A stretch of DNA of 64,000 nt, taken from contig NZ_JACVCU010000001.1 in NCBI RefSeq assembly GCF_014518425.1, positions 310,001 to 374,000 on the forward strand. Direction: 5' to 3'. The notes below the pieces were generated by a model that was not told the DNA's origin, did no database searches, and saw only the letters and a program-made list of their open reading frames with translations. The DNA is from Terrabacter sp. MAHUQ-38. Lineage in GTDB: Bacteria > Actinomycetota > Actinomycetes > Actinomycetales > Dermatophilaceae. Below, piece after piece: positions 11,422 to 26,344 of this stretch (positions are counted from its first letter, which is position 1; each line of letters starts with the position of its first letter). The position numbers were made by a program, and so were the translations under genes.

Positions 11422-12962
11422 TTCGCCTCCGTGGTCTCGCGCTCGGGAAGTCGCTCTGGTGCGGGTTCAGGTTGCTTGTCGCCACGCCGCATACGGAACG
11501 CCTTGCGCAGCAAGGGGAACAGCGCCACCAGGAGGATCGCGGCGAAGATGGTCCCGGAGATGGGCCGGGTCACGAAGCCGGTCGGGTCGCCGCCGAAGAT
11601 GAGCAGCGACTGCCGCGACGACGACTCGATCAACGTGCCGAGGACGAACGCGAGCACCATCGGGCCCGGGTCGAAGCCGAACTTCTTCATGAGGTAGCCG
11701 ACGATGCCGAAGACGATGACGAGGTAGATGTCGAAGACCGAGTTGTTCACGGTGTAGACGCCGAGCATCGTGATGAGGGCCGTGATCGGCGCGAGGATGG
11801 CCGGCCGCACCCGCAGGATCCGCACGAAGATGCCGACCATGGGGATGCTCATGATGAGCAGCAGGATGTTGCCGATGTACATCGAGTTGATGACGCCCCA
11901 GAAGATGTCGGGGTGCTGGTCGACGAGCTGCGGTCCCGGCTGGACGCCCTGGATGAGCAGTGCACCGAACATCAGCGCCATCGTCGCGTTGGCCGGGATG
12001 CCGAGGGTGAGCAGCGGGATGAACGACGAGGTGGCCGCCGCGTTGTTGGCGGACTCAGGCGCCGCGACGCCCTCGATCGCACCCCGGCCGAAACGCTCGG
12101 GCTGCTTCGCGCGGCGCTTCTCGACGGCATACGCGACGAGTGACGAGAGCACGGCGCCACCACCGGGCAGCACGCCCAGACCGAAGCCGATGCCCGAGCC
12201 GCGGGCGATCGCCCCCTTGGACTCACGGAGGTCCTGGCGCGTGGGCCAGACCCGTGCGACCTTCGCCGGGGCGTGCACCTTCTTGTGGTTCTCCTCCAGG
12301 TTGTAGAGGATCTCGCCGAGACCGAAGAGGCCCATGGCGATCGGCACGAAGTCGATGCCGTCGGCCAGGTTGAGGTTGCCGAACGTGAAGCGTTCGGCGC
12401 CGGTGAAGGTGTCGCGCCCCACAGTGGCGATGAGCAGTCCGAGGGCCGCCGCGATGACCGCCTTGAGCTTGCCGCCGTTGCCGACCGTCGCGACGAGCAG
12501 GACGCCGAGCAGCCCTAGCGCGGCGTACTCCGGCGGGCCGAAGTCGAGGGCGTAGCCGGCGACGACCGGCGCCAGGACCGACAGGCCGATGATCGAGATG
12601 GTGCCGCCGATGAACGAGCCGATCGCGGCGATGCCGAGGGCGGCACCCGCGCGGCCCTGTTTGGCCATCGCGAACCCGTCGAACACGGTGACGACCGAGC
12701 TGGCCTCCCCCGGCAGCCTGAGCAGCACCGAGGTGATGGTGCCGCCGTACTGCGCGCCGTAGAAGATGCCGGCCAGCATGATGATCGCCGACACGGGCTC
12801 GATGCCGTAGGTGAGCGGCAGCAGGATCGCGATGGTCGCCGCGGGGCCGAGACCCGGGAGGACGCCGATGAGCATGCCGATGAGCACGCCGACGAGACAG
12901 TAGAGCAGGTTCGTCGGCTGCAGGACGATGCCGAAGCCGTCGATGATCGGGGTGAAGTCCAT
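11418..12962 (-). CDS. tctA: TctA-family permease of a tripartite tricarboxylate-type transporter
   Basis: 514 residues starting at MDFTP; an apparent upstream extension is out of context. About eleven hydrophobic helices are present. The TctA signature block near residues 25-50 contains GVLIGMLIGVLPGLGPAATIA, and a second Gly/Pro block GVLPGGGAVLSS lies mid-protein, reflecting the internal duplication of the family. It is the large membrane subunit that moves a carboxylate, energised by an ion gradient, together with TctB and the binding lipoprotein TctC encoded upstream. The neighbouring aldarate enzymes suggest that the substrate is glucarate or galactarate. Confidence 0.93.
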   Translation of the reverse strand: MDFTPIIDGFGIVLQPTNLLYCLVGVLIGMLIGVLPGLGPAATIAILLPLTYGIEPVSAIIMLAGIFYGAQYGGTITSVLLRLPGEASSVVTVFDGFAMAKQGRAGAALGIAAIGSFIGGTISIIGLSVLAPVVAGYALDFGPPEYAALGLLGVLLVATVGNGGKLKAVIAAALGLLIATVGRDTFTGAERFTFGNLNLADGIDFVPIAMGLFGLGEILYNLEENHKKVHAPAKVARVWPTRQDLRESKGAIARGSGIGFGLGVLPGGGAVLSSLVAYAVEKRRAKQPERFGRGAIEGVAAPESANNAAATSSFIPLLTLGIPANATMALMFGALLIQGVQPGPQLVDQHPDIFWGVINSMYIGNILLLIMSIPMVGIFVRILRVRPAILAPITALITMLGVYTVNNSVFDIYLVIVFGIVGYLMKKFGFDPGPMVLAFVLGTLIESSSRQSLLIFGGDPTGFVTRPISGTIFAAILLVALFPLLRKAFRMRRGDKQPEPAPERLPERETTEAK

Positions 12963-12973
12963 GGCTGTCCTCC

Positions 12974-13516
12974 TCAGACGAGACGCGGGAGGGGGATGGA
13001 GAGCGCCACGACGAACAGCGCGTAGAACGCCGCCACGGTGAGGACGCTGATGACGGCCGTCATGCGCCACGACTCGCCGCCGAGGAAGCGGAGCCAGACG
13101 ACCATGAGCACCAGCGACGGCACCTCGAAGCCGATGACCGGCAGCAGGGCAGCCAGCGCCACGAGCGAGAGGACGCCGAGCGCGGTGAGCGCGCTGGACC
13201 GGGTGAACTTCTCCGTGTCCTGGCCGTCACGCCCGAAGGCGATCTGCGCCATTGACAGGGCAGTCACGGCAACGGAGACGGCGAAGGGCCACAGCCCGGG
13301 ACCCGGCTGGGTCAGGGTCCCCAGCCCGTAGCCGAGCGCCAACACCGTGCCGGCGACGCCGAGCGCCAGGGTCACGAGCCCCGCCCCGACCTGGGCGAGC
13401 GGTCCCGCGTGGGGCGGTCGCTCCTCCTCCAGGTCGTGGGCGAGCTCGGCCTTGAGCTCCTCGAGGATGTCGGCCTCGGCGGCCTGCTGCCGCCCCGGCT
13501 CGCTCGTCGTGCTCAT
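12974..13516 (-). CDS. tctB: TctB-family small permease subunit
   Basis: 180 residues: a cytoplasmic, Glu-rich N-terminal stretch of about 45 residues, then four hydrophobic helices typical of TctB. The PGPGLWPFAVSVAV segment matches the conserved G.fP..v region of the family. It is the small membrane subunit of the tripartite tricarboxylate-type system. It lies 11 bp upstream of tctA and 39 bp downstream of tctC, so the three form one transcript. The charged N-terminal extension is longer than in many TctB proteins. Confidence 0.88.
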   Translation of the reverse strand: MSTTSEPGRQQAAEADILEELKAELAHDLEEERPPHAGPLAQVGAGLVTLALGVAGTVLALGYGLGTLTQPGPGLWPFAVSVAVTALSMAQIAFGRDGQDTEKFTRSSALTALGVLSLVALAALLPVIGFEVPSLVLMVVWLRFLGGESWRMTAVISVLTVAAFYALFVVALSIPLPRLV

Positions 13517-13555
13517 CCCAGGCTCCTCTTCGAGTGGGTGGTGGTCCGGACCGGC

Positions 13556-14578
13556 TCAGCCGTTCGAGGCGAGCGAGATGCCGAACTGCTTGAGCTTGGC
13601 GGTGTTGGACTCGAGATCGGCCTTGAGCATGCTCGCGACCTCGGCCCCCGGCAGCTCGAGGGGGGTGAGGTTGTTCTCCTCGTTGAACTTCTTGTACTCC
13701 TCCGTGGCGAACGCCTTCTTGGCCGCCTCGACGAGCTTGTCCTTGACCGCCTGCGGCGTGCCCTTGGGGGTCGTGATGAAGCGGTACTGCGACACCTGGA
13801 CGTCGAAGCCCTGCTCCTTGGCCGTCGGCACGTCGGGCAGGAAGGGGACCCGCTCGGCCGAGAAGACCGCGAGCGGGACGAGCTTGCCGGCCTTGATGTT
13901 CTCGATGGCCTCGCCGACCTGCATCGTGGACACGTCGACCTGGGCGCCGAGCAGGGCGGTGAGGTTGGGCGCGCCGCCGTCGAAGGGGACGGCCGTGGCC
14001 TTGATGCCGGCGGTGGCGAAGGTCAGTGCCGAGTTGAGCTGGGCACCGGTGCCGACGCCGGTCGTGCCGTAGCGGATGGTCTTGCCCGCCGCCTTCATGT
14101 CCGCGATGCTCTTCCACCCCGTCTTCGGGTTGGTGGCCAGCACGTAGTCGTCACGCGAGACGCCGTAGACGATGTCGAAGTCGTCGACCTTGACGGCCTC
14201 CGACGCGGAGACGGCGAGCGGCGTGATGGCGAAGAGCGAAGCGTTCTGGATCGCGATGGAGTAGCCGTCGGGCTTGGCCGTCTGCAGCTCCTTGGCCACG
14301 AGGGCGCCGTTGGCGCCGGGCTTGTTGACGACGGGCATCGCGACGCCGAGCGCCTGGCCCATGCCCTTGGACATGGCGCGGCTGATGAGGTCGCTGCTGC
14401 CGCCGGCCGAGGCACCGACGGTCATCTGGATGCTCTTCGTCGGGTAGTCGCTCCCTCCGGTGGCGCCGTCGCCGCCGGTGGATCCGGTCTTGACGCCTCC
14501 GCAGGCGGTGAGGACGAGGGCGAGTGTGGCGGCGCCGGCGGCGGTGGCGACGCGGTGCCTCGTTCGAACGTTCGTCAT
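13556..14578 (-). CDS. tctC: TctC-family solute-binding lipoprotein
   Basis: 340 residues. The signal peptide ends in lipobox LTAC, followed by a Gly/Ser/Thr-rich linker, so the protein should be tethered outside the cell membrane. The TctC (Bug) domain starts at about residue 45 with YPTKSIQMTVGASAGGSSDLISR. Two conserved loops follow, including VNKPGANGALVA and RYGTTGVGTG. It captures a carboxylate for the TctAB permease. It is the first gene of the minus-strand operon. The divergent LysR gene and its T-N11-A site lie directly upstream, so the LysR protein probably controls this operon. Confidence 0.93.
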   Translation of the reverse strand: MTNVRTRHRVATAAGAATLALVLTACGGVKTGSTGGDGATGGSDYPTKSIQMTVGASAGGSSDLISRAMSKGMGQALGVAMPVVNKPGANGALVAKELQTAKPDGYSIAIQNASLFAITPLAVSASEAVKVDDFDIVYGVSRDDYVLATNPKTGWKSIADMKAAGKTIRYGTTGVGTGAQLNSALTFATAGIKATAVPFDGGAPNLTALLGAQVDVSTMQVGEAIENIKAGKLVPLAVFSAERVPFLPDVPTAKEQGFDVQVSQYRFITTPKGTPQAVKDKLVEAAKKAFATEEYKKFNEENNLTPLELPGAEVASMLKADLESNTAKLKQFGISLASNG

Positions 14579-14683
14579 TGAAGGTCTCCTCGAGCTGGTG
14601 CGCCGTCCGGGGCGGGGCGCTGGGGGTCAGGTCTGGTCCCTTGACGGGAGACACTACGAATGACAGTCAATGCGTGTCCAAAC

Positions 14684-14717
14684 CCGATGCTGCATCGGTT
14701 GATACCCTCGCTGTATC
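14684..14717. promoter_or_regulatory. Divergent LysR-type operator region (tctC operon / lysR)
   Basis: Two dyads lie between tctC and the lysR gene. CCGATG (14684-14689) and CATCGG (14693-14698) form a perfect 6-bp repeat around CTG. GATAC (14701-14705) and GTATC (14713-14717) are separated by 7 bp and give the T-N11-A pattern (T14703, A14715) of LysR-type regulators. The second site ends 10 bp before the lysR ATG, fitting autoregulation; the first would serve the divergent tct operon. Confidence 0.65.
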
Positions 14718-14727
14718 GTGGGCGCGC

Positions 14728-15651
14728 ATGATGACCCTCGACCAGGTGCGGGCGTTCGTCGCCGTCGCCGAGGAGCTGCACTTCGGCCGGGCGGCCGACC
14801 GGCTCAACATGACCCAGCCCCCTCTGAGCCGGCAGATCCAGAAGCTCGAGCGCACGGTCGGGGTGACGCTCCTCGAGCGCGACAACCGCCGGGTCGCGCT
14901 CACGGAGGCCGGACGCGCCTTCCTCGACGAGTCCTACCGCCTGCTCGCGCTCGTCGACAGCGCCGGCGACGTCGCGCGCCGCATCGACGGTGGCGCGGCC
15001 GGCACCCTGCGTCTCGGCTTCACGGCCGTGTCGGCCATCGGCATGCTCGGCCCCCTCCTGAAGGAGCTCGACCGCAGCCTCCCCGGTGTCGAGGTCATCC
15101 TCCACGAGCGGGTCACGGCCGCCCAGGCCGACGGCATCCGCCGCGGTGAGCTCGACCTCGGCCTGGCGCGCCCACCGTTCGACACCACGGAGTTCGAGTC
15201 GCGCGTCGTGTTCCGTGAGGCGCTGTGCGCTGCCGTGCCGGCGGGCCACCCGCTCGCCGCGGTGACGCGGCCGCTGACGGCCGGCGACTTCGACCGCGTG
15301 CCGGTCATCAGCTACAACCCCGTGCAGTCGCGCTACTTCCACGAGCTGACGGTCCGCTTCCTCACCAACGCGCACCCGAGGGTCGAGCAGCAGGTGCACC
15401 AGATCCTCACCGCCGTCCTGCTCGTCGCCGCGGGTCGCGGGTGCGCCCTCGTGCCTGCCTCCGCGCGATCGCTCGGGGTGCAGGGCGTGGTCTACAAGGA
15501 CCTCGTCGACGGAGGTGGCGACCCCGACGGTAGCGAGACCCCCGGTCGGCCGGTCGAGCTGCACGCCATCTGGGCACGCGGCCGGCGCAGCCCGATGCTG
15601 CGCCGGGTCCTCGCCCAGATCGGCCGGATGCAGCTCGGCGACGACGCCTGA
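14728..15651 (+). CDS. LysR-family transcriptional regulator
   Basis: 307 residues from ATG at 14728 (a second ATG follows at once). The longer in-frame frame upstream is Arg-rich and not like a LysR protein. The N-terminal helix-turn-helix reads LDQVRAFVAVAEELHFGRAADRLNMTQPPLSRQIQKLE, abridged here to its HFGRAA and QPPLSRQ hallmarks. Residues ~90-300 form the periplasmic-binding-like effector domain. Gene placement between tctC (divergent) and kdgD (downstream, same strand) points to control of both aldarate uptake and breakdown, probably in response to a sugar acid or pathway intermediate. Confidence 0.92.
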   Translation: MMTLDQVRAFVAVAEELHFGRAADRLNMTQPPLSRQIQKLERTVGVTLLERDNRRVALTEAGRAFLDESYRLLALVDSAGDVARRIDGGAAGTLRLGFTAVSAIGMLGPLLKELDRSLPGVEVILHERVTAAQADGIRRGELDLGLARPPFDTTEFESRVVFREALCAAVPAGHPLAAVTRPLTAGDFDRVPVISYNPVQSRYFHELTVRFLTNAHPRVEQQVHQILTAVLLVAAGRGCALVPASARSLGVQGVVYKDLVDGGGDPDGSETPGRPVELHAIWARGRRSPMLRRVLAQIGRMQLGDDA

Positions 15652-18390: not shown

Positions 18391-19713
18391 ATGTCGCCGA
18401 AGATCGCCTCCGTCGACGTCGTGCCCGTCGCCGGCCACGACAGCATGCTGCTCAACCTCAGCGGCGCCCACGGCCCCTTCTTCACCCGCAACGTCGTGAT
18501 CGTCACCGACAGCGACGGAAACACCGGACTCGGCGAGGTGCCGGGCGGAGAGGCGATCGCCGGAACGATCCGCGATGCCGCACTGCTGTTGCTGGGCAAG
18601 GAGATCGCCCGCTTCCGCCAGCTCCTTCGCCACGTCGGCGAGACGTATGCCGCCCGCGACGCCGGCGGTCGCGGCACCCAGACCTTCGACCTTCGCACCA
18701 CGGTCCACGCCGTCACCGGTCTCGAGTCGGCCCTGCTCGACCTCATGGGCCAGCACCTCGGGGTGCCGGTCGCCGAGCTGCTCGGTGACGGCCAGCAGCG
18801 CACCCACGTCCCGATGCTCGGCTACCTCTTCTACGTCGGCGACGCAGGCCGCACCGACCTGCCCTACCTCGTCGACGACGAGGGCGACGACCGCTGGTCG
18901 CAGCTGCGTCGCCGCGAGGCCCTGACACCGGAGGCCGTCGTCGCGCTCGCGGAGGCCGCGCAGGAGCGCTACGGCTTCAGCGACTTCAAGCTCAAGGGCG
19001 GCGTGCTGACCGGCGACGAGGAGGTCGCCGCCGTCACCGCCCTGGCCCGCCGCTTCCCCGACGCACGGATCACGCTCGACCCCAACGGCGGTTGGCTCCT
19101 CGACGATGCCGTACGCCTGTGCACAGGTCTCGACGACGTGCTCGCCTACGCGGAGGACCCGTGCGGCCCGGAGGGCCGTTTCTCCGGTCGCGAGACGCTG
19201 GCCGAGTTCAAGCGCGCCACCGGGCTGCGCACGGCTACGAACATGATCGCGACGGACTGGCGCGAGATGGCGCACGCGATCCGCACGAACGCCGTCGACA
19301 TCCCGCTCGCCGACCCGCACTTCTGGACGATGGCCGGCTCGGTGCGGGTCGCCCAGCTCTGCAACGACTTCGGCCTGACGTGGGGCTCGCACTCGAACAA
19401 CCACTTCGACATCTCGCTCGCGATGTTCACCCACGTCGGCGCGGCCGCGCCCGGCGAGATCACGGCGCTCGACACGCACTGGATCTGGCAGGACGGCCAG
19501 GCCCTCACGACCGAGCCGCTGCAGATCCGCGATGGTGCTATCGAGGTGCCGACCTCTCCCGGTCTCGGGGTCACCCTCGACCGCGACGCCCTCGCCGCGG
19601 CGCACGAGCTCTACCTCGCACACGGCCTCGGCGCGCGCGACGACGCCGTGGCGATGCAGTTCCTCGTCGACGGCTGGACGTTCGACCCGAAGCGCCCCTG
19701 CCTCGTGCGGTGA
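18391..19713 (+). CDS. gudD: D-glucarate dehydratase
   Basis: 440 residues starting with [13 protein letters not shown]. It is the canonical glucarate dehydratase branch of the enolase superfamily: K200/K202 in FKLKGG, D230 in DPNGGW, E255, N284 in ATNMIATD, D308 and H334 in [10 protein letters not shown]. It removes water from D-glucarate (or L-idarate) to give 5-keto-4-deoxyglucarate for KdgD. It is the third gene of kdgD-KGSADH-gudD. A strong hairpin follows at 19746. The divergent paralogue at 9755 and the talarate/galactarate enzyme at 7755 give three related dehydratases in one island. Confidence 0.94.
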
Positions 19714-19745
19714 CGAGTTGCGCTCCGGCGTACGCGCTGCGCTTT

Positions 19746-19783
19746 GGCCCACGGCCTGCTGGGGCAACGGCAGGCCGTGGGCC
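19746..19783. terminator. 14-bp hairpin after the aldarate operon
   Basis: Perfect arms GGCCCACGGCCTGC (19746-19759) and GCAGGCCGTGGGCC (19770-19783) with a 10-nt loop. It lies between the gudD stop (plus strand) and the stop of the minus-strand CHAT gene, so it could terminate transcription from both sides. There is no T-tract, as often seen in high-GC actinobacteria. Confidence 0.7.
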
Positions 19784-19822
19784 GTAGAGCAGTCAGTGGG
19801 GCTCTGCGCGCTCTTGCGGACA

Positions 19823-22486
19823 TCAGGGGCGGTGCTGCCCACCGAGGTTGAGGAAGGCGGCCGCGACATCGTCGGTCTCGGCGACGGCGCGCGCGAGGGC
19901 CTCGTCGCTCGCCAGGCCCGAGGCGAGCAGCGCGTGGTGGCGGGTCATCGTCGTCGCGGCCACGTCGTCGGGCACCGGCGCGACGGCCGCGACGACGGAG
20001 CGTGCGCCGAGGGAGAGCAGCGACAGCGCGAGCCCCAGGGACTCGTGACCGGGCCGCGCCGACGCGAGGCCCACCTCACAGGCCGAAAGCACGACATGGT
20101 CGGCGCGGACACCGGTGGGCTGCAGCTCGTGGGCGAAGACGGGCCCGTCGTGGAGCACGAGCGAGGAGAAGAGCGGCGACTCGACCTGGTGCGTCCCGTG
20201 CGCCGCGACGTGCACGACGCCAGGGCGCGCGAGAGCACGCACGAGCTCGTCGCGGCGTGACGGCCCCGGCGCCTCGTCGCCCGCGCCCCAGGTCTCGAGG
20301 ATCGTGCGGGCCTCGCCCGCCGCGCGTGGCACGCCCGGCCCGACACTGACGTGGACCGGGGTCGTCGGCACGCCGCCGGAGCCACCGGAGCCGCCGGAGC
20401 CGCCGGAGCCGCCGTCGGCCGGAGTGATCCCGGCACGACGCGCGAACGACGTCAGCGAGAGTGCCACGGTGAAGGGGCGGCCCACCATCGAGGGCAGCAG
20501 CGCCCACGGCAGGGCCGACACCTCCGGACACACGACGACGACGAGCCCCCGCTGTGACCGCCAAGGGCCCAGCAGAGCCCTGTCGAGCTCCGCCGCACTC
20601 GACCGGAGAGACGACCAGACCGCACCGGCGAGCGGGCCGAGGTGGTGCGTGGCGGCCGCTCGCAGGTCGACGCGGACCCGCTGCGCGAGCTCTGCCGCGC
20701 GCTCGATCGGCATGAGGTCACGCATGACGGCGCGTCCGCCGACCACGCCGACGGCGGCGAGCCGGCCGCGGTGCCGGAAGAACCACACGAGGTCGCGGTC
20801 GACCTGATCCAGGTGGGCGCGTGCCTCACGGACGCGCACGGGGATGGCGCGGGCGGAGGTGCCGTTGCGGCTCAGCGCCCAGTCACGGTCGCGGATCTGG
20901 CGTTCGAGACGTGATGCGTGGTCGTGCAGCTCGCGCAGCTGCTCCGGGTCGGTCTCGCCGCGGCCGTGACCGCGGACGGCCCGGAGCTGTTCGGTGAGCA
21001 CGGCCAGCTGCTCGTCGTCGGGGCGCCCGAGCGACGGGAGCCGGTCGGTGGCACTGCGCCACCGCTCGAGCGCCTCGAGCACGGCGCCGCTCCCCCGCGG
21101 CACGGCGAGCTCGAGGTCGAGCTCCGACAACCGGGCGCCGTGGACCGCCCGGGCGGTGCGCAGGTCGAGGCTCGCGCTGCCCTCCTGCCCCGCAGCGAGC
21201 CGGCGCGAGGCTCGCGCGAGGATCCGCCGGGCCGGCGTGACGTCGCCGGCGGCGACGAGCGTCATGGCCGTCACCGCCGCGGCGTCGAGCTCGTCGGAGA
21301 GCGAGGCCGTGGACACCCGCTCGAGGCTGAGCAGCCGGGAGTTCGCACCGGCTACATCGCCGGCGAGGAGCAGCGCCTGCGCCGCGACGACGCGCGCACT
21401 GTCGGCGAGCTCGGAGTCGCCCAGCTCGGTCGCGGTCTCGGTGAGCTCGTCCGCCGTGGCGGCCGCGGCAAGCGCCACGGAGGCGTCGCCCACGCCGACG
21501 ATGCGCTTGACGAGGTCCGGCTCGAGCCGTTCGCGGTCGCGGCGCACGCGCCGCTGCCGGTCCAGGTCGACGAGGAGGCCGACGAGCATGGCCTTGGCCG
21601 CCCACGCGGTCGCGCCGATGCGTCCGTAAGTCTCACGGGCCGAGCGGGCGGCGTCCGCCGCGAGGTCGAGGTGCCCGATCAGACGGTGTGCGCGCGCGAG
21701 CTCCAACTCGAACTCCGCGCGGATCTGGTCGTGCCCGTCACCGCTCACGCCGGCCAGCCCCGCGTGCAGCGCCTCGACGGCCTCCTTGACGAGCCCGGCC
21801 TCGAGCAGGACCCGAGCCCGGTCGAGGCGCGCCGGCCCCTTGAAGACGTCGGACTCGATGTCCTCGGCCCCAGCCATGTCGGCGAGGGAGCGCGGGATGT
21901 CACCGAGCAGGTACGCGGCATACCCCTCGTTGTGCCGGGCCATGAACTCCTGCTCCCGGCCACCGAGCTCGTGCGCGAGCCGCGCCGCCTCGGCGAAGGA
22001 CTCGAGTGCCTCCTGCGGGCGCAGCAGCTCGAAGGCGAGCATGCCGCGGCTCAGGTGCACCGAGGCCTGCTCGCGCTCGGTGAACGCGTCGAGCCGGCGG
22101 ACCGCACCCTCGAGCCCGTCCCACGCCGACGCGAGGTCGCCGACCCGGCCGTGGATGTTGGCGCGCTGGTAGTCGAGGCGCGCGCGCAACCGGTCGTCGC
22201 CGAGCGCGTCGACGACCTCCTCGGCCTCGGCCAGCCGGGCGATCGCGGGCTCGAGGCCGGCGAGCATGAACTCCGTGAGGGCGAGGGTGATGAGTGTCTT
22301 GCAGCGCAGCTCGAGCGCCTCGGCCGTGGGGGCCGCCCCCGCGAGCCGGTCGATCTCGTCCAGGGCTGCGGTGAGCGAACGGGCGGCCTGGACCGGTCGT
22401 CCGGCCAGGTTGTCCGCCGCGCCCTGCTCACGCAGGGTCCGGGCACTCTCGAGCAGGTCGATGGCTCCCGCCGGCCTCTCGCTCAG
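19823..22486 (-). CDS. TPR-CHAT caspase-like protein (start unresolved)
   Basis: About 887 residues if a CTG at 22486 is used. The N-terminal ~500 residues are helical, Ala/Leu-rich and repeat-like (TPR). The C-terminal ~270 residues form a CHAT (caspase/separase-like) protease domain. Its catalytic His lies in VHVAAHGTH (about 125 residues from the end) and its Cys in VLSACEVGLA (about 85 from the end); both are intact. A Gly-Gly-Ser linker interrupts the CHAT domain. No signal peptide or membrane segment is seen. The frame stays open and protein-like up to the stop of the preceding gene, with no ATG, GTG or TTG in its first ~85 codons. A GTG at 22497 would read in frame if one C were added at a run of four, so a frameshift or sequence error is possible. 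It is the last gene of the S8-sigma operon. Confidence 0.87.
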   Translation of the reverse strand: MSERPAGAIDLLESARTLREQGAADNLAGRPVQAARSLTAALDEIDRLAGAAPTAEALELRCKTLITLALTEFMLAGLEPAIARLAEAEEVVDALGDDRLRARLDYQRANIHGRVGDLASAWDGLEGAVRRLDAFTEREQASVHLSRGMLAFELLRPQEALESFAEAARLAHELGGREQEFMARHNEGYAAYLLGDIPRSLADMAGAEDIESDVFKGPARLDRARVLLEAGLVKEAVEALHAGLAGVSGDGHDQIRAEFELELARAHRLIGHLDLAADAARSARETYGRIGATAWAAKAMLVGLLVDLDRQRRVRRDRERLEPDLVKRIVGVGDASVALAAAATADELTETATELGDSELADSARVVAAQALLLAGDVAGANSRLLSLERVSTASLSDELDAAAVTAMTLVAAGDVTPARRILARASRRLAAGQEGSASLDLRTARAVHGARLSELDLELAVPRGSGAVLEALERWRSATDRLPSLGRPDDEQLAVLTEQLRAVRGHGRGETDPEQLRELHDHASRLERQIRDRDWALSRNGTSARAIPVRVREARAHLDQVDRDLVWFFRHRGRLAAVGVVGGRAVMRDLMPIERAAELAQRVRVDLRAAATHHLGPLAGAVWSSLRSSAAELDRALLGPWRSQRGLVVVVCPEVSALPWALLPSMVGRPFTVALSLTSFARRAGITPADGGSGGSGGSGGSGGVPTTPVHVSVGPGVPRAAGEARTILETWGAGDEAPGPSRRDELVRALARPGVVHVAAHGTHQVESPLFSSLVLHDGPVFAHELQPTGVRADHVVLSACEVGLASARPGHESLGLALSLLSLGARSVVAAVAPVPDDVAATTMTRHHALLASGLASDEALARAVAETDDVAAAFLNLGGQHRP
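20371..20417. repeat. Gly-Gly-Ser coding repeat in the CHAT domain
   Basis: Short tandem 9-bp units (CCGGAGCCG-like) encode four GGS repeats and flanking glycines between two CHAT core segments (after ARRAGIT and before VHVSVGPG). It looks like a flexible loop inserted away from the catalytic His and Cys. Confidence 0.75.
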
Positions 22487-22510
22487 GGGCCGGTCACACC
22501 CCCGCTGTCG

Positions 22511-22544
22511 ATCGTCAGGTCTGGATCGTCAGATCTGGATCGTC
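22511..22544. repeat. 14-bp tandem repeat at a gene junction
   Basis: ATCGTCAGGTCTGG (22511-22524) and ATCGTCAGATCTGG (22525-22538) are tandem copies with one mismatch, followed by a partial third copy. One copy contains the stop codon of the small upstream gene (22529-22531). It may be a local slippage duplication that altered the junction with the CHAT gene. Confidence 0.7.
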
Positions 22545-23026
22545 GGGGTGATGACCGGTCGCATGTCCTCGTTGCCGGGGTCGGTCACCACGAAGTGGAC
22601 CGGCCCATGGGGTAGATCATCCAGAACGAACCGTCCGTTCGCATCAGAAACCACCGACGAGCTTCCCTCCGTCGTCACGGCCTCGACCTGGGCACCGGGG
22701 ACCGTCACCCAGCCGTCGACCCGCACGCGGTCGTCGGTGTCGTCGGAGTCGTCGGGGCCGGCCGACACCATGAGGCTCACCGAGGCGGCCGTGAAGGTGA
22801 CGGAGTCGGTCGGCGTCGGCTCGACCTTGGCGTCGGTGCCGCGCGTCACGAGCAGGGCCGAGTCCATGAGCTCGGCCACCTCGGCGTGCAACGCCTCGAC
22901 CGTGATCGCGAACTTGATCCGCTCGGCGAGGTCGCCGGGCACGGGGTCGGCGTGGGCGAACAGGTCGCGCACCTGGCCGAGGTTGGCGAGGTCGCGGGCG
23001 TCGATGGCGTCCGTGTGAGATGTCAT
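22529..23026 (-). CDS. Small protein with helical N-terminus and carboxypeptidase-regulatory-like C-terminus
   Basis: 165 residues, starting 1 bp after the sigma-factor stop. Residues 1-60 are helical (DLFAHADPVPGDLAERIKFA, then a Glu/Leu-rich stretch), resembling the short cytosolic partner domains found beside sigma factors. Residues ~75-165 are beta-rich with VDGWVTVPGAQVEAV and DANGRFVLDDLPHGPVHFVV, the pattern of a carboxypeptidase regulatory-like / transthyretin-like fold. I recall similar proteins in other actinobacteria placed between a sigma-70-like gene and a CHAT gene. A role as anti-sigma or adaptor for the proteases is inference. No signal peptide. Confidence 0.75.
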   Translation of the reverse strand: MTSHTDAIDARDLANLGQVRDLFAHADPVPGDLAERIKFAITVEALHAEVAELMDSALLVTRGTDAKVEPTPTDSVTFTAASVSLMVSAGPDDSDDTDDRVRVDGWVTVPGAQVEAVTTEGSSSVVSDANGRFVLDDLPHGPVHFVVTDPGNEDMRPVITPTIQI

Positions 23027-23027
23027 G

Positions 23028-23609
23028 TCAGACCGCCCATCCGGGGTCGGAGCCGAGGGTTGTCCTCAGCTTCTGGAGACAGCGGCCGCGGGTCGGGCCG
23101 ATGCTGCCGACGGGCATCCCCAGCGACTGCGCGATGGCCGCGTAGTCGGGGCGGTCGGCGAACGCGATGACCCGGAGCAGCTCCTGGCACCGCGGCGAAA
23201 GGGTCGAGACGTGCTTCCACAGCACGCGCTGGCGCTCCGAGAGAATCGACTGCGCCTCGGGGTCGAGCTGCTGCGCCGGGGCCTCGGGCACCTCCTCGAC
23301 GCCGAACTCGCGGCGCGACCCGCGGGCGAGACGCCAGACCTCGCGCTTCACGACGACGACGAGCCAGCCGAGCACGGCAGCGGGCTCGTTGATCGACTCC
23401 GCGCGGTCGACGAGCTGGAGGAACGCCGTCTGGATGGCGTCTTCGCACGTGGCCGGCGCGCCACCCTGGGAGCGCGCGGCGTTCCACAGCACGGGGGTGA
23501 CGAGGTCGACGAGCTCCGAGAGGCGCTCGCGCTCACCGGCGCGGTAGGCGGCGAACGCCTTGCCCGCCAGGGTGCCGAGACCGTCGGAGGCCGTGGGGGT
23601 CGGGGTCAT
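23028..23609 (-). CDS. ECF-like sigma-70 family RNA polymerase sigma factor
   Basis: 193 residues; the ATG overlaps the S8 protease stop (ATGA). Region 2 covers about residues 30-100 with AIQTAFLQLVDRA and GWLVVVVKREVWRLARGSRRE. Region 4 covers ~125-190 with LSPRCQELLRVIAFADRPDYAAIAQSLGMPVGSIGPTRGRCLQKLR (helix-turn-helix). Regions 1 and 3 are absent, as in ECF factors. It should direct RNA polymerase to a small regulon, perhaps including its own operon promoter near 25225-25250. No classical transmembrane anti-sigma gene is adjacent; the neighbours are proteases and a small soluble protein. Confidence 0.9.
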   Translation of the reverse strand: MTPTPTASDGLGTLAGKAFAAYRAGERERLSELVDLVTPVLWNAARSQGGAPATCEDAIQTAFLQLVDRAESINEPAAVLGWLVVVVKREVWRLARGSRREFGVEEVPEAPAQQLDPEAQSILSERQRVLWKHVSTLSPRCQELLRVIAFADRPDYAAIAQSLGMPVGSIGPTRGRCLQKLRTTLGSDPGWAV

Positions 23610-25177
23610 GACCGCACCCTTCCGATGCAGGTGCGCAGCGCGCGGATCGCGCGACGGCGCATGGCGTGGGACGAGGTGTCGGTCAGGCCGCCCTCGTCGA
23701 TGAGGGCCGCCGCGAGCTCCGCCGCGAAGACCGGGGTGGAGAAGGACGTGCCGCTCCAGACACCGAAGCCGCCGGTGTAGTCGTCGGGGTCTACGGTGCA
23801 GCGCACCGTGTCTCCCGAGCTCACCTCCGACGACGGCTGGCCCATGCCGTTGGTGAGCGGCAGGGTGCTCACGACCGAGACGCCCGCGCGGATCGCGCTG
23901 ACGACCGGCAGGTTGTTGGAGAAGAGCGCGACGCTGACGCCGTCGGGGTTGCTCGCGCCGACGCTCGCCAGGGGCGGGACGGCCTTCGCGGTGATCCGCT
24001 GCGGCGGCTCGGCCGCGAGGGCTGCGGGCACGAACGGGGCGTCGGTGCCGTCGTTGCCGACGCCGGCGACGACGAGGACGCCGTGCTCGGCGAACCGGTC
24101 GAGCAGGTCGGCGACGGGGCCGGAGGTGTAGGTGCGGTCCTCGGCGTAGTAGCCGAGCGAGAGGGACAGGACGTCGACGACCTCGGCCTCGACCCCCTTG
24201 TCCTGGCCGTGGACGTGCCGGTCGAGCAGGGCCTGGAGGACGTCGAGCATGACGCTCTCGTCGACGACACCGTCGTCTCCCATGACCTGGATCGAGACGA
24301 TCGTGGCCTCGGGGCAGCCCTGTCGGATGAGGCCGGCGATGAACGTCGCGTGGCCCTGGAGGAGCCCGACGGGCTCGGCCGGGGCGGGAACGGAGACCGG
24401 CGGGTTCACCGGGCCGGACGTCAGCAGCGGGACCAGCCTGCCCTCCTTGAGCACCAGGCGCACGACGCCCTCGCCGTCCTTGAACCACGGGTGCGCCGCG
24501 ATGGCGGTGTCGGGCACGACGACGACGGGGCTGCGGTCGAGGGTGCGGGCGCGCAGGCGCGGGTCGGGCAGAGCCAGGGCGACCGGCATACGGCCGCCGC
24601 GTCCGGGCACGGAGTACTCCTGCAGGGCGCTCCCGACGCCGCCCCAGTAGCCGCCCACGCCACCCCAGTAACCACCCACGCCACCCCAGTAACCACCGAC
24701 GCCGCCCCAGTAGCCACCCACACCGCCCCAGTAGCCGTCGGCCGGACGCAGGACGTGCTCGAGGCTGAGCCGTTCGGCCACTGGGTCGCGCGCCTCGCGC
24801 AACCGCTGCAGGACGCTCCAGGCATCGACGGGGTCGATGGGCGAGCGGGTCGGCTTGAGCGTGATGCTCGTGCCCCACGTGGGCCGGTCGAGGTCGCGCG
24901 GGCCGCCGTCGGGCCGCGGCGTCACCTCGAAGTCGAGGTCGAGCTTGCCGAGCGCCTCGCGCAGGTCCTCGATGTCACGGGGCGCGCCGCCCCGCTCGTT
25001 GCTCACGAGGAGGCGGTCGGACAGGTAGAGCGCGGGCAGCGGCGGACGACCGTCGGTCAGGCGCATGGCCGTGGCCGGGTCGAGGGCGCGGACAGGCGGG
25101 CGCTCGGGTCGGCGTGGGCCGCCCGTCACGCTCTCGTCATTCGCACCCTGGGGGGCGTCGGGACCCGACTCTGACAT
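23606..25177 (-). CDS. Cytoplasmic subtilisin-like (S8) serine protease with YWGG repeats
   Basis: 523 residues from ATG at 25177; AGGAGG at 25184-25189 gives ideal spacing, whereas a TTG two codons earlier would overlap it. The N-terminal ~145 residues are unlike a secretion signal and may be a regulatory or pro-region. Five heptad copies of YWGGVGG follow (YWGG at residues 149, 156, 163, 170, 177). The peptidase domain has Asp223 in VVVPDTAIA, His276 in QGHATFIAG, oxyanion Asn375 in GVGNDG and nucleophile Ser478 in SGTSFSTP, so the triad is intact. With no signal peptide or membrane helix it probably acts inside the cell. It is the first gene of the S8-sigma-small protein-CHAT operon. Confidence 0.92.
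   Translation of the reverse strand: MSESGPDAPQGANDESVTGGPRRPERPPVRALDPATAMRLTDGRPPLPALYLSDRLLVSNERGGAPRDIEDLREALGKLDLDFEVTPRPDGGPRDLDRPTWGTSITLKPTRSPIDPVDAWSVLQRLREARDPVAERLSLEHVLRPADGYWGGVGGYWGGVGGYWGGVGGYWGGVGGYWGGVGSALQEYSVPGRGGRMPVALALPDPRLRARTLDRSPVVVVPDTAIAAHPWFKDGEGVVRLVLKEGRLVPLLTSGPVNPPVSVPAPAEPVGLLQGHATFIAGLIRQGCPEATIVSIQVMGDDGVVDESVMLDVLQALLDRHVHGQDKGVEAEVVDVLSLSLGYYAEDRTYTSGPVADLLDRFAEHGVLVVAGVGNDGTDAPFVPAALAAEPPQRITAKAVPPLASVGASNPDGVSVALFSNNLPVVSAIRAGVSVVSTLPLTNGMGQPSSEVSSGDTVRCTVDPDDYTGGFGVWSGTSFSTPVFAAELAAALIDEGGLTDTSSHAMRRRAIRALRTCIGRVRS
24634..24737. repeat. Five 21-bp tandem repeats encoding YWGGVGG
   Basis: Near-identical 21-bp units differ mainly at third codon positions (CCGCCC/CCACCC and TAG/TAA context on the plus strand). 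The synonymous drift indicates that the peptide repeat is under selection rather than newly duplicated. It lies inside the S8 protease gene, just before the peptidase domain. Confidence 0.9.
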
Positions 25178-25224
25178 CGACAACCTCCTGAGGGGTGATT
25201 GGTGCTGGAAAGACCCTTACACCC

Positions 25225-25250
25225 GACTGAGTGTCGGTAACCCGGTTTCC
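25225..25250 (-). promoter_or_regulatory. Candidate ECF-type promoter of the S8-sigma-CHAT operon
   Basis: On the minus strand, GGAAAC (25250-25245) resembles the ECF -35 GGAAC element. GTC (25227-25225) after a 17-bp spacer resembles the ECF -10. The GTC lies in a small dyad, CCGAC/GTCGG (25223-25227 and 25232-25236). The start codon is 48 bp downstream of the -10. Autoregulation by the operon's own sigma factor is inferred. Confidence 0.45.
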
Positions 25251-25329
25251 TGATACATCGGCCCCTCGAATCTTTTTCCGTCCGAGGCGTATCACCCCGG
25301 CACGCTCCGACTCTGGACGGACGGGGGTC

Positions 25330-25450
25330 GGTCACCGGGCTGCTTCGGGGCGCTGCGGAGGGGCAGCAGGCCCGGTGACCTCAGGGGTTCCGGGTCGGTC
25401 TGGGGGCTGACCCGGTCCAGGGGCGCCGGGCTTGGCAGCACCGGCGCCCC
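25330..25450. other. Three consecutive hairpins in a divergent intergenic region
   Basis: The 408-bp gap between the S8 protease and the lipoprotein gene holds no convincing gene but is highly structured. Hairpin 1: GGTCACCGGGCTGCT (25330-25344) pairs with AGCAGGCCCGGTGACC (25365-25380), with one bulge. Hairpin 2: CCGGGTC pairs with GACCCGG (about 25390-25414). Hairpin 3: GGGGCGCCGG (25420-25429) pairs perfectly with CCGGCGCCCC (25441-25450). These may be a structured RNA, stacked terminators or a cruciform element; no T-tract is present. Confidence 0.6.
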
Positions 25451-25585
25451 CTCCCTGCCCACCCGCGCACCCGGGCCGTATGCCGTGTGCCGCGCGTCCG
25501 CTCGCGCCGGGACCTCCCGAGCACGCATACTTCACGACGTCGACGGGCACCAGGGACCCGCGGACGGGAGCTCAGGGGAGTCGGG

Positions 25586-26344
25586 ATGCAGGTCAGCACA
25601 CGGGGTCACGGCGGTCGGCGCCGATGGATGCGGTCGGCGGTGGCGGTGGCCGTGCTCGGCATGGTCCTCGGGGCGTGCAGCCCCAAGGCGCCCGACGGGA
25701 CCTCGGCGGCACCGTCGGCACCGGCGGTGAGCGCCACGAACACGGAGCCGCTCCGCCCGACCACGGCAGAGCCCCTGCCGACGGAGACCGCCGAACCGCT
25801 GACCCCGACGAAGCCGACGGAGCCCGCGGCGACCACGTCGGCCCCCACCCCGTCGGCGACGGACGACCCCGGCTCGGTGAGCGGGGACTGCACGAGGACG
25901 CTGCCGGCATACCCGGAGCTGTCACCCGGCGCGCAGGGTCGGGCCGTGCGCGCCCTGCAGTGCTTCCTCAACGACGCCGACTTCGGACCCGTGACGGTCG
26001 ACGGCGTCTACGGCGCGCAGACCCGCGCCGCGATGAAGCGCCTCGAGGCGACGTACGAAGGGCCGGCCCCGAAGCCGGGCCGCGTCGATGCCGGCGTGTG
26101 GGTGCTCGTGATCAGCCGTTCGATGGGCAACGCGACGCTGAAGCAGGGGTCGAAGGGTGCCGACGTGACGACCCTGCAGCGGGCGCTGCGCGCGGCCGGC
26201 GCCACGATCACCGTCAATGGCCTCTTCGGCGCCGAGACGAAGAGGGCCGTCCAGCGCTTCCAGGACGCCAACCGCATCGGCGCCGACGGCATCGTCGGCG
26301 ACGAGACGCTCTTCCTGCTCAAGAGCGGCGCGACGATCGGCTGA
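25586..26344 (+). CDS. Lipoprotein with two peptidoglycan-binding (PG_binding_1) domains
   Basis: 252 residues from ATG at 25586 with AGGGGAG upstream. The N-terminus is a lipoprotein signal with lipobox LGAC. A Pro/Thr/Ala-rich linker of about 75 residues follows. Domain 1 (about residues 110-165) contains GRAVRALQCFLNDADFGP and VDGVYGAQTRAAMKR. Domain 2 (about 185-250) contains GADVTTLQRALRAAG and VNGLFGAETKRAVQRFQDANRI. Both match the PG_binding_1 repeat. It should be membrane-anchored and bind cell-wall peptidoglycan; no catalytic domain is present. The gene stands alone, converging on pheA. Confidence 0.88.
   Translation: MQVSTRGHGGRRRWMRSAVAVAVLGMVLGACSPKAPDGTSAAPSAPAVSATNTEPLRPTTAEPLPTETAEPLTPTKPTEPAATTSAPTPSATDDPGSVSGDCTRTLPAYPELSPGAQGRAVRALQCFLNDADFGPVTVDGVYGAQTRAAMKRLEATYEGPAPKPGRVDAGVWVLVISRSMGNATLKQGSKGADVTTLQRALRAAGATITVNGLFGAETKRAVQRFQDANRIGADGIVGDETLFLLKSGATIG

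Follow-up and report, generated by a model that had tools for sequence, protein, structure and literature searches.

Architecture of the four-gene locus

The window analysed here, the whole 64,000-nucleotide stretch from Terrabacter sp. MAHUQ-38 (contig NZ_JACVCU010000001.1, positions 310,001 to 374,000), carries on its minus strand a compact unit of four genes, which encode a subtilisin-type S8 protease, an extracytoplasmic function (ECF)-type sigma factor, a small protein designated SML and a caspase-like TPR-CHAT protein. An earlier note on this DNA had proposed the unit, and all four genes are present as it claimed. The S8 gene (23606..25177; 523 residues, ATG 25177 to TGA 23606, with a TTG at 25183) overlaps the sigma factor gene (23028..23609; 193 residues, ATG 23609) through a shared ATGA, and a 1-bp gap separates the latter from the SML gene directly 3' of it (22529..23026; 165 residues), both as the note had described. 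The third junction requires correction: the CHAT frame, which the note had taken to abut the SML gene directly, runs stop to stop from 22528 and holds no ATG, GTG or TTG before 22267. The ECF-type identity of the sigma factor is borne out by TIGR02937 (1e-17; 63.8 bits against a cut-off of 42.9), alongside a Sigma70_r2 match (4e-7) and a region 4 signature, MPVGSIGPTRGRCL. The two proteases match Peptidase_S8 (5e-11) and CHAT PF12770 (6e-25), the CHAT protein with further weak TPR matches, and are assigned to the cytoplasm on the basis that no signal peptide is seen by eye in either sequence.

Both proteases appear intact, as the note had stated, their catalytic residues being kept in relatives wherever the alignment covers the position. 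The S8 triad (D223, H276, S478) is retained in all members of two sets of relatives (70/70 and 52/52, or 122/122), whereas the CHAT catalytic histidine (codon 20198-20200) is kept in 69/73 and 53/57 and the cysteine (codon 20078-20080) in 69/73 and 54/57, the remainder being alignment gaps. The PF12770 match and the His/Cys pair define the protein as a predicted CHAT-domain cysteine protease. In the AlphaFold2 model of S8 (pTM 0.84), a propeptide-like domain of strand-helix-strand-strand-helix-strand topology (residues 50-145; 24743..25030, minus strand) is followed by a disordered repeat linker and then by the catalytic domain, and Foldseek searches with S8 return mostly prodomain-containing forms as best matches, such as pro-Tk-subtilisin and pro-subtilisin E. 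By its triad and its modelled N-terminal propeptide domain, S8 is thus a subtilase with propeptide, built as a zymogen, for which inhibition by the prodomain is predicted. The linker between prodomain and catalytic domain holds five tandem copies of the seven-residue unit GYWGGVG (YWGGVGG-type; 24632..24736, minus strand). A longer S8 frame starting at TGTATCAG was considered and rejected: it is open in relative locus L104 and stopped in the window, and the same motif also precedes other genes.

SML consists of two helices (residues 10-26 and 33-60), a beta sandwich (75-148) and a conserved C-terminal tail, VITPTIQI, in agreement with the beta-rich protein that the note had foreseen. Its match to CarboxypepD_reg is borderline (4e-7; 30.9 bits, slightly below the 32.3 cut-off), and the same family is matched at E<=0.01 by 50 of 72 SML members. 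The host genome encodes a single SML at E<=1. We also observed an SML relative of 42% identity (L214, 1723-2172) on an unannotated 7.5-kb record from human stool labelled Bacteriophage sp., which may be a mislabelled bacterial contig.

Homology to relatives carries the CHAT protein back to approximately ATC 22462 or CTG 22456 (gene 19823..22462, minus strand), upstream of 22267 and without an ordinary start codon, so its start is probably non-canonical. When the window is compared with ten relatives (10 of the 13 tried were matched) across the 20 codons that begin at ATC 22462, 57 of the 79 codon changes are synonymous, which makes a rare start codon likely; from the sequence we would place it probably at ATC 22462 or CTG 22456. 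Just 5' of the coding region lies a short hairpin, CCGGCC/GGCCGG (22471..22493, minus strand), present by eye in most same-genus sequences, with the apparent start downstream of it (22456-22497). Apparent starts in relatives, again by eye, include a GTG in L030 and an ATC after AGGAGG in L031; the alignment rows of L028, L029 and L031 reach further 5' than the likely start. Two other explanations were discarded: an SML-CHAT fusion by stop read-through, for which the frames agree across the stop in the window and disagree in L021, L022, L024 and others, and a programmed frameshift at the conserved GTG/ATG-ACCGGCC leading into CHAT, which was not adopted because the spacing of that motif varies.

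Conservation of the arrangement and divergence of the protease repeats

The conserved synteny on which the note's grouping depended proved very strong. With the sigma factor as the only query, 320 relatives were found in the named collection and the best 80 kept as loci, some of them cut by contig ends. SML lies directly downstream on the same strand in 80/80, with CHAT nearby in 73, S8 in 70 and all four genes in 66; among the loci of at least 16 kb, all four are found in 41/47. Neighbouring genes in these loci were called with a purpose-written gene caller that at times chose the wrong strand, and the broad profiles used for annotation had been iterated on loci of the kind that they annotate. 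Across the phylum, 396 evenly drawn genomes (SML at E<=1e-3, CHAT at E<=1e-30, S8 at E<=1e-15) yielded SML in 29, CHAT in 46, S8 in 32 and all three in 22, a co-occurrence with Fisher p of 5e-25 to 1e-33. In the same draw CHAT lies within 5 kb of 32/35 S8 places and S8 within 5 kb of 32/52 CHAT places, counts that omit second pieces of already listed proteins (CHAT in G281, S8 in G387). The four-gene arrangement is far beyond chance.

All eight same-genus relatives carry S8, and seven carry the four genes in the same order; the eighth (L004) is cut by a contig end, and the three genes that fit are present. Other genera show the same order or, in L032, sigma-SML-S8-CHAT, with hosts that include Terrabacter, Intrasporangium, Humibacillus, Phycicoccus, Cellulomonas, Tessaracoccus, Microlunatus, Nocardioides and Pseudonocardiales bins. 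A chromosomal place beside pheA is common to 15 of the 80 loci. Neither protease was found on the available sequence of L175, L182 and L197. The openly accessible literature that we searched yielded no description of this four-gene arrangement. As separate observations, at least one same-genus genome holds a second, diverged S8/CHAT/SML/sigma set (L035, 6107-11246) near ponA-PadR-inositol synthase genes, and genes of the same three kinds flank a sigma-SML pair lacking S8 and CHAT in L082, L085 and L093.

The protease repeats go beyond what the earlier note had described. Perfect tandem repeats of a 5-10-residue peptide unit occur in 55/70 S8 relatives, 53 of the 55 with an aromatic residue, and in 24/53 S8 proteins of a deeper-reaching set. 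The unit differs between lineages (GYWGGVG, PYWDPV, GYGSGV, PYTSGS, PVTSGH and others), and within the tandem runs, which were selected for identical peptides, codons differ in 507 of 1406 pairs. Five Cellulomonas loci in which no S8 was found encode instead a divergent trypsin-like protease that bears FTEP repeats, and L169 has a trypsin-like protein with different repeats, located further away. The S8 repeats are thus lineage-specific and aromatic, and in Cellulomonas a repeat-bearing trypsin takes the place of S8.

A shared promoter motif and its candidate regulon

The operon is preceded by a promoter (25227..25257, minus strand) made up of TGTATCA at 25257-25251, a 17-nucleotide (nt) spacer and CACTCAG, the spacer being 16 nt in same-genus relatives. 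Motif conservation further defines a divergent sigma-type promoter, GTATCA-N16-CTCT, at 25289..25314 on the plus strand. In relatives, GTATCA-N16-(C/G)TC is found within 500 nt upstream in 61/73 loci (operon strand 47, divergent strand 47, both 33), against a best count of 6 (TATCAG, an overlapping shift) and a median of 0 among 178 permuted hexamers. Exact TGTATCA occurs upstream of the operon in 36/75 loci, with (C/G)TC(C/T) exactly 16 nt behind it in 23/36; these upstream windows end at the profile match, so some sites may be cut off, and the best permutation controls in this test (22 and 13), like the 6 of the relaxed test, include overlapping shifts or the inverted motif partner. Upstream of the operon, TGTATCA-N16-(C/G)TC is about 66 times denser than in the remainder of these 80 loci, where 22 of its 24 sites are found on the opposite strand and no more than about 230 nt from the operon. 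Among eight S8-CHAT stretches without a sigma gene, two (L119, L120) have a full TGTATCA site between S8 and CHAT; in L130 TGTATCA is differently spaced, and L114, L115 and L118 hold the relaxed motif somewhere in the stretch. A search of positions 19600-25700 of the window returned no sigma-70 consensus promoters.

The promoter sites are well defined by their conservation, and the sigma factor encoded in the operon is their putative reader; in the genome of L035, with its second related system, this ownership is less certain. The data support a dedicated ECF sigma factor that controls its own proteases. The earlier note's link between sigma factor and proteases accordingly holds at the promoter level, with a conserved ECF-type promoter before the operon in most loci and the L119 and L120 sites between S8 and CHAT, while its proposed cascade of proteolysis stays a conjecture. 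Separately, a LuxR-type regulator with an NTPase domain stands behind the same motif and adjoins CHAT in L072 (12506-14320) and L068 (~12913-14910).

Across nine same-genus genomes, GTATCA-N16-CTCT gives 33 matches versus 3 for the reversed pattern. Thirty of the 33 fall at four orthologous sites, assigned by coordinate overlap, namely the divergent operon promoter (9) and the elements el3 (8), el1 (7, the G002 match lying 42 nt outside the aligned part) and el2 (6), with 3 left unassigned. This pattern replaced a narrower one, whose 19 matches had the operon site as their only clearly shared member. In the aligned promoter rows, chosen with a looser form of the motif and with one motif-less el3 row dropped, the spacer is variable and the hexamer and CTCT are kept, the exception being the el3 row of the host genome, which reads CACT.

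The divergent promoter faces a lipoprotein gene with peptidoglycan-binding domains (25628..26344, plus strand; PG_binding_1 3e-22), a predicted regulon member whose start lies 339 nt past the promoter here and 305-390 nt past it in the eight relatives where our script located the gene. Between them lies a conserved leader of about 150 nt (25328..25480, plus strand; eight same-genus sequences) that folds strongly (z -2.1; 4/200 shuffles fold equally well). An Rfam scan of 22300-25800 gave one sub-threshold mir-650 match and no family for the leader. In 7/9 same-genus genomes, the host not among them (L262-L268), el1 holds a GAGGAG ribosome site followed by the gene for a small basic protein; the protein begins M(G/T)IPP(H/Q)AAR and measures 69-73 residues in the 5/7 rows that show the stop. 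Noncoding by appearance and lying directly behind GTATCA-N16-CTCT, el2 and el3 match no Rfam family and are candidate sigma-driven small RNAs. Both sides of a predicted pair have changed in 0/50 pairs of el2 (11 with misfits) and 2/32 of el3 (6 misfits), which leaves structure plausible rather than demonstrated. The conserved noncoding elements are seen at L253-L261 (host genome G000:C11:574422) and L246-L251 (host genome G000:C1:1046104), and el2 is located between convergent genes, adjoining an ECF/anti-sigma pair.

A proposed proteolytic sigma switch, its rivals and known systems

We favour, tentatively and with a little less than even confidence, a cytoplasmic ECF sigma switch that is gated by proteolysis and reinforced by positive feedback. 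In the resting state, SML would bind and hold the sigma factor, and S8 would be kept inactive by its own prodomain. A cue sensed by the TPR part of the CHAT protein would activate the caspase-like protease, which could cut SML directly, or cut the S8 repeat linker so that S8 destroys SML; either route would free the sigma factor. Free sigma factor would then transcribe from GTATCA-N16-(C/G)TC promoters, that of its own operon included, yielding more protease and more sigma factor, and its further targets would be the divergent envelope lipoprotein and, in the genus, the two putatively structured noncoding elements and the small basic protein (7/9 genomes, not this one). The casting of SML as inhibitor, CHAT as trigger and S8 as zymogen amplifier is modelled by analogy on the Csx29-Csx30-CASP-sigma cascade of type III-E CRISPR, where, according to PMC10028731, the TPR-CHAT protease Csx29 cuts Csx30, the inhibitor of an ECF sigma factor.

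What points to an anti-sigma role for SML is the position of its gene, and several observations weigh against the switch as drawn. No confident match for SML was obtained in solved structures (PDB), by sequence or by fold, and hence no link to any known anti-sigma factor. SML copies occur with no sigma gene found alongside in L067, L069 and L083, and CHAT or S8 lies within 10 kb of only 22/33 SML places in the 396-genome draw. S8 is missing in 7/73 CHAT-bearing loci, some of them cut by contig ends. At the promoter level, the operon site of the window has 17-nt spacing and CACTC rather than CTCT, 11 of 40 deeper or same-genus four-gene stretches hold no exact TGTATCA anywhere, and another sigma factor could own the motif. 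Finally, tandem S8-SML-CHAT cassettes in L078 and L079 carry an SML of their own, which equally fits an adaptor.

The cassettes of L078 and L079, which have no adjacent sigma gene, are an argument that SML serves the proteases as a substrate adaptor, with the sigma factor itself as a substrate switched off by S8 and CHAT. The beta sandwich and the well-kept C-terminal tail suggest docking, and negative control by proteases that the sigma factor itself induces would also be conceivable; SML nevertheless stands immediately behind the sigma gene in 80/80 loci, including the protease-less L175, L182 and L197, and we consider the adaptor reading rather improbable. Found both next to the sigma gene and inside protease cassettes, SML is tied to both partners. 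A further reading takes the unit as an immune or cell-death module, in which the CHAT TPRs would sense an invader, S8 would be activated and both proteases would digest the cell, the sigma factor only amplifying expression. Three reports on bacterial conflict systems (PMC8195603, PMC7159879, PMC10907252) describe caspase-like, CHAT and trypsin-like proteases, the lineage-specific repeats and the exchange of S8 for trypsin resemble an arms race, and presence is patchy, with SML in 29 of the 396 genomes. Against this, PADLOC returned no match at E<=1e-3, to IetA or any other model, for the ten neighbouring genes, and weak matches only for the four genes themselves: S8 resembles IetS (E 1e-4) and CHAT resembles BovA (E 7e-4), both partially and weakly. 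IetAS and Borvo are the defence systems to which these two matches belong. The fixed place beside pheA speaks against a mobile defence island, and SML has no match on plasmids and one on the unannotated phage-labelled record, SML being the only one of the four genes searched there. The genus regulon of lipoprotein, small protein and noncoding elements includes no recognised toxin. For the sigma-gated self-digestion or defence role that the earlier note had offered as an alternative, PADLOC, the fixed chromosomal place and the plasmid search thus gave no positive evidence; a defence role is possible, and the immune or cell-death module as a whole rather improbable.

A very improbable account makes the repeats peptide cargo, tandem core peptides carried by S8 or trypsin that would be modified and released as in lanthipeptide biosynthesis, with the pathway under the sigma factor. 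Its appeal lies in genes that, beyond the earlier note's scope, adjoin the system in some relatives: by Pfam name, a HopA1-like lyase is near it in 11, an APH kinase in 8 and a LanC-like protein in 5 of 80 loci, and APH/HopA1/LanC-type genes lie directly behind the promoter motif in L181, L190, L191, L199 and L076. For cacaoidin, a class V lanthipeptide, PMC9486802 reports joint dehydration of Ser/Thr by an APH-like and a HopA1-like enzyme. In L157, L178 and L076 a Cys- and Ser/Thr-rich trypsin tail is followed by APH, HopA1 and LanC-like genes, and lanthionine crosslinking of the protease tail is possible there. Threonine in the S8 repeat coincides with HopA1/APH nearby (6/11 versus 3/44, p=0.001; p=0.008 when restricted to the 43 loci that have 3 kb or more of upstream sequence; p=0.02 for their 29 distinct units). 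Serine and threonine pooled, however, give a weak signal (p=0.03 for 55 loci) that disappears in the 43 (p=0.37) and for their 29 units (p=1.0). The statistical link of repeat threonine to these genes is suggestive only, and the host genus mostly lacks HopA1 (1/9 genomes, not this one) and has a repeat devoid of Ser/Thr.

Returning to the proteolytic switch, its output is directly measurable through the promoter motif and the four-site regulon, and two features are both unexpected and testable: protease-borne repeats identical as peptide with differing codons, and the nearby lanthionine-type enzymes of relatives. If true, the switch would mean that caspase-like transcription control also operates away from CRISPR, within the ordinary chromosomal circuitry of a large phylum, and would offer a model for the linkage of CHAT proteases, sigma factors and small inhibitors. 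Pushed to its widest, and here we are doubtful, the proposal would be that Actinomycetota hold an undescribed, CRISPR-free caspase-gated sigma switch, in which TPR-CHAT and a zymogen subtilisin (or trypsin) with fast-diverging sticky repeats destroy the two-domain inhibitor of a dedicated ECF sigma factor, whose regulon would comprise the proteases together with two small RNAs, the small basic protein and the envelope lipoprotein. Enzymes of the class V lanthipeptide type, encoded behind a promoter of this kind, would in some lineages modify protease repeats rich in Ser/Thr or protease tails rich in Cys, and the CASP cascade linked to CRISPR would represent one specialised use of a principle that is more widespread on chromosomes.

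Among known systems, the type III-E CASP cascade shares with our model a sigma factor held by a protease-cut protein, shown for CASP and proposed here. The locus differs from it in scoring 25.6 bits against the Csx29 model NF041237 (cut-off 300), in having no CRISPR-like repeat in the 26 kb round the operon (10000-36000) and, on inspection by eye, no recognisable Cas gene in its called neighbours, no Cas7-11 model search having been made, and in pairing an SML of 165 residues, versus 565 for Csx30, with an additional S8 zymogen. The PDB searches likewise gave SML no confident sequence or fold match that would indicate homology to Csx30, the two not having been directly aligned. Proteolytic sigma release, putative here, and positive autoregulation recall RseA/RpoE, from which the unit departs in that SML shows no membrane segment by eye, no DegS or RseP gene was recognised, and the proteases are soluble caspase-like and subtilisin enzymes (compare PMC8103513). 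The EACC2/caspase systems described by Kaur et al. 2021 likewise join a caspase-like peptidase, an ECF sigma factor and a TPR protein in one neighbourhood; they carry EACC2 and TRADD-N modules (PMC8195603), neither of which turned up when the four proteins here were matched to Pfam, their own models not having been searched. The locus is thus a conserved four-gene system that resembles a known cascade in its proposed working without being a member of it.

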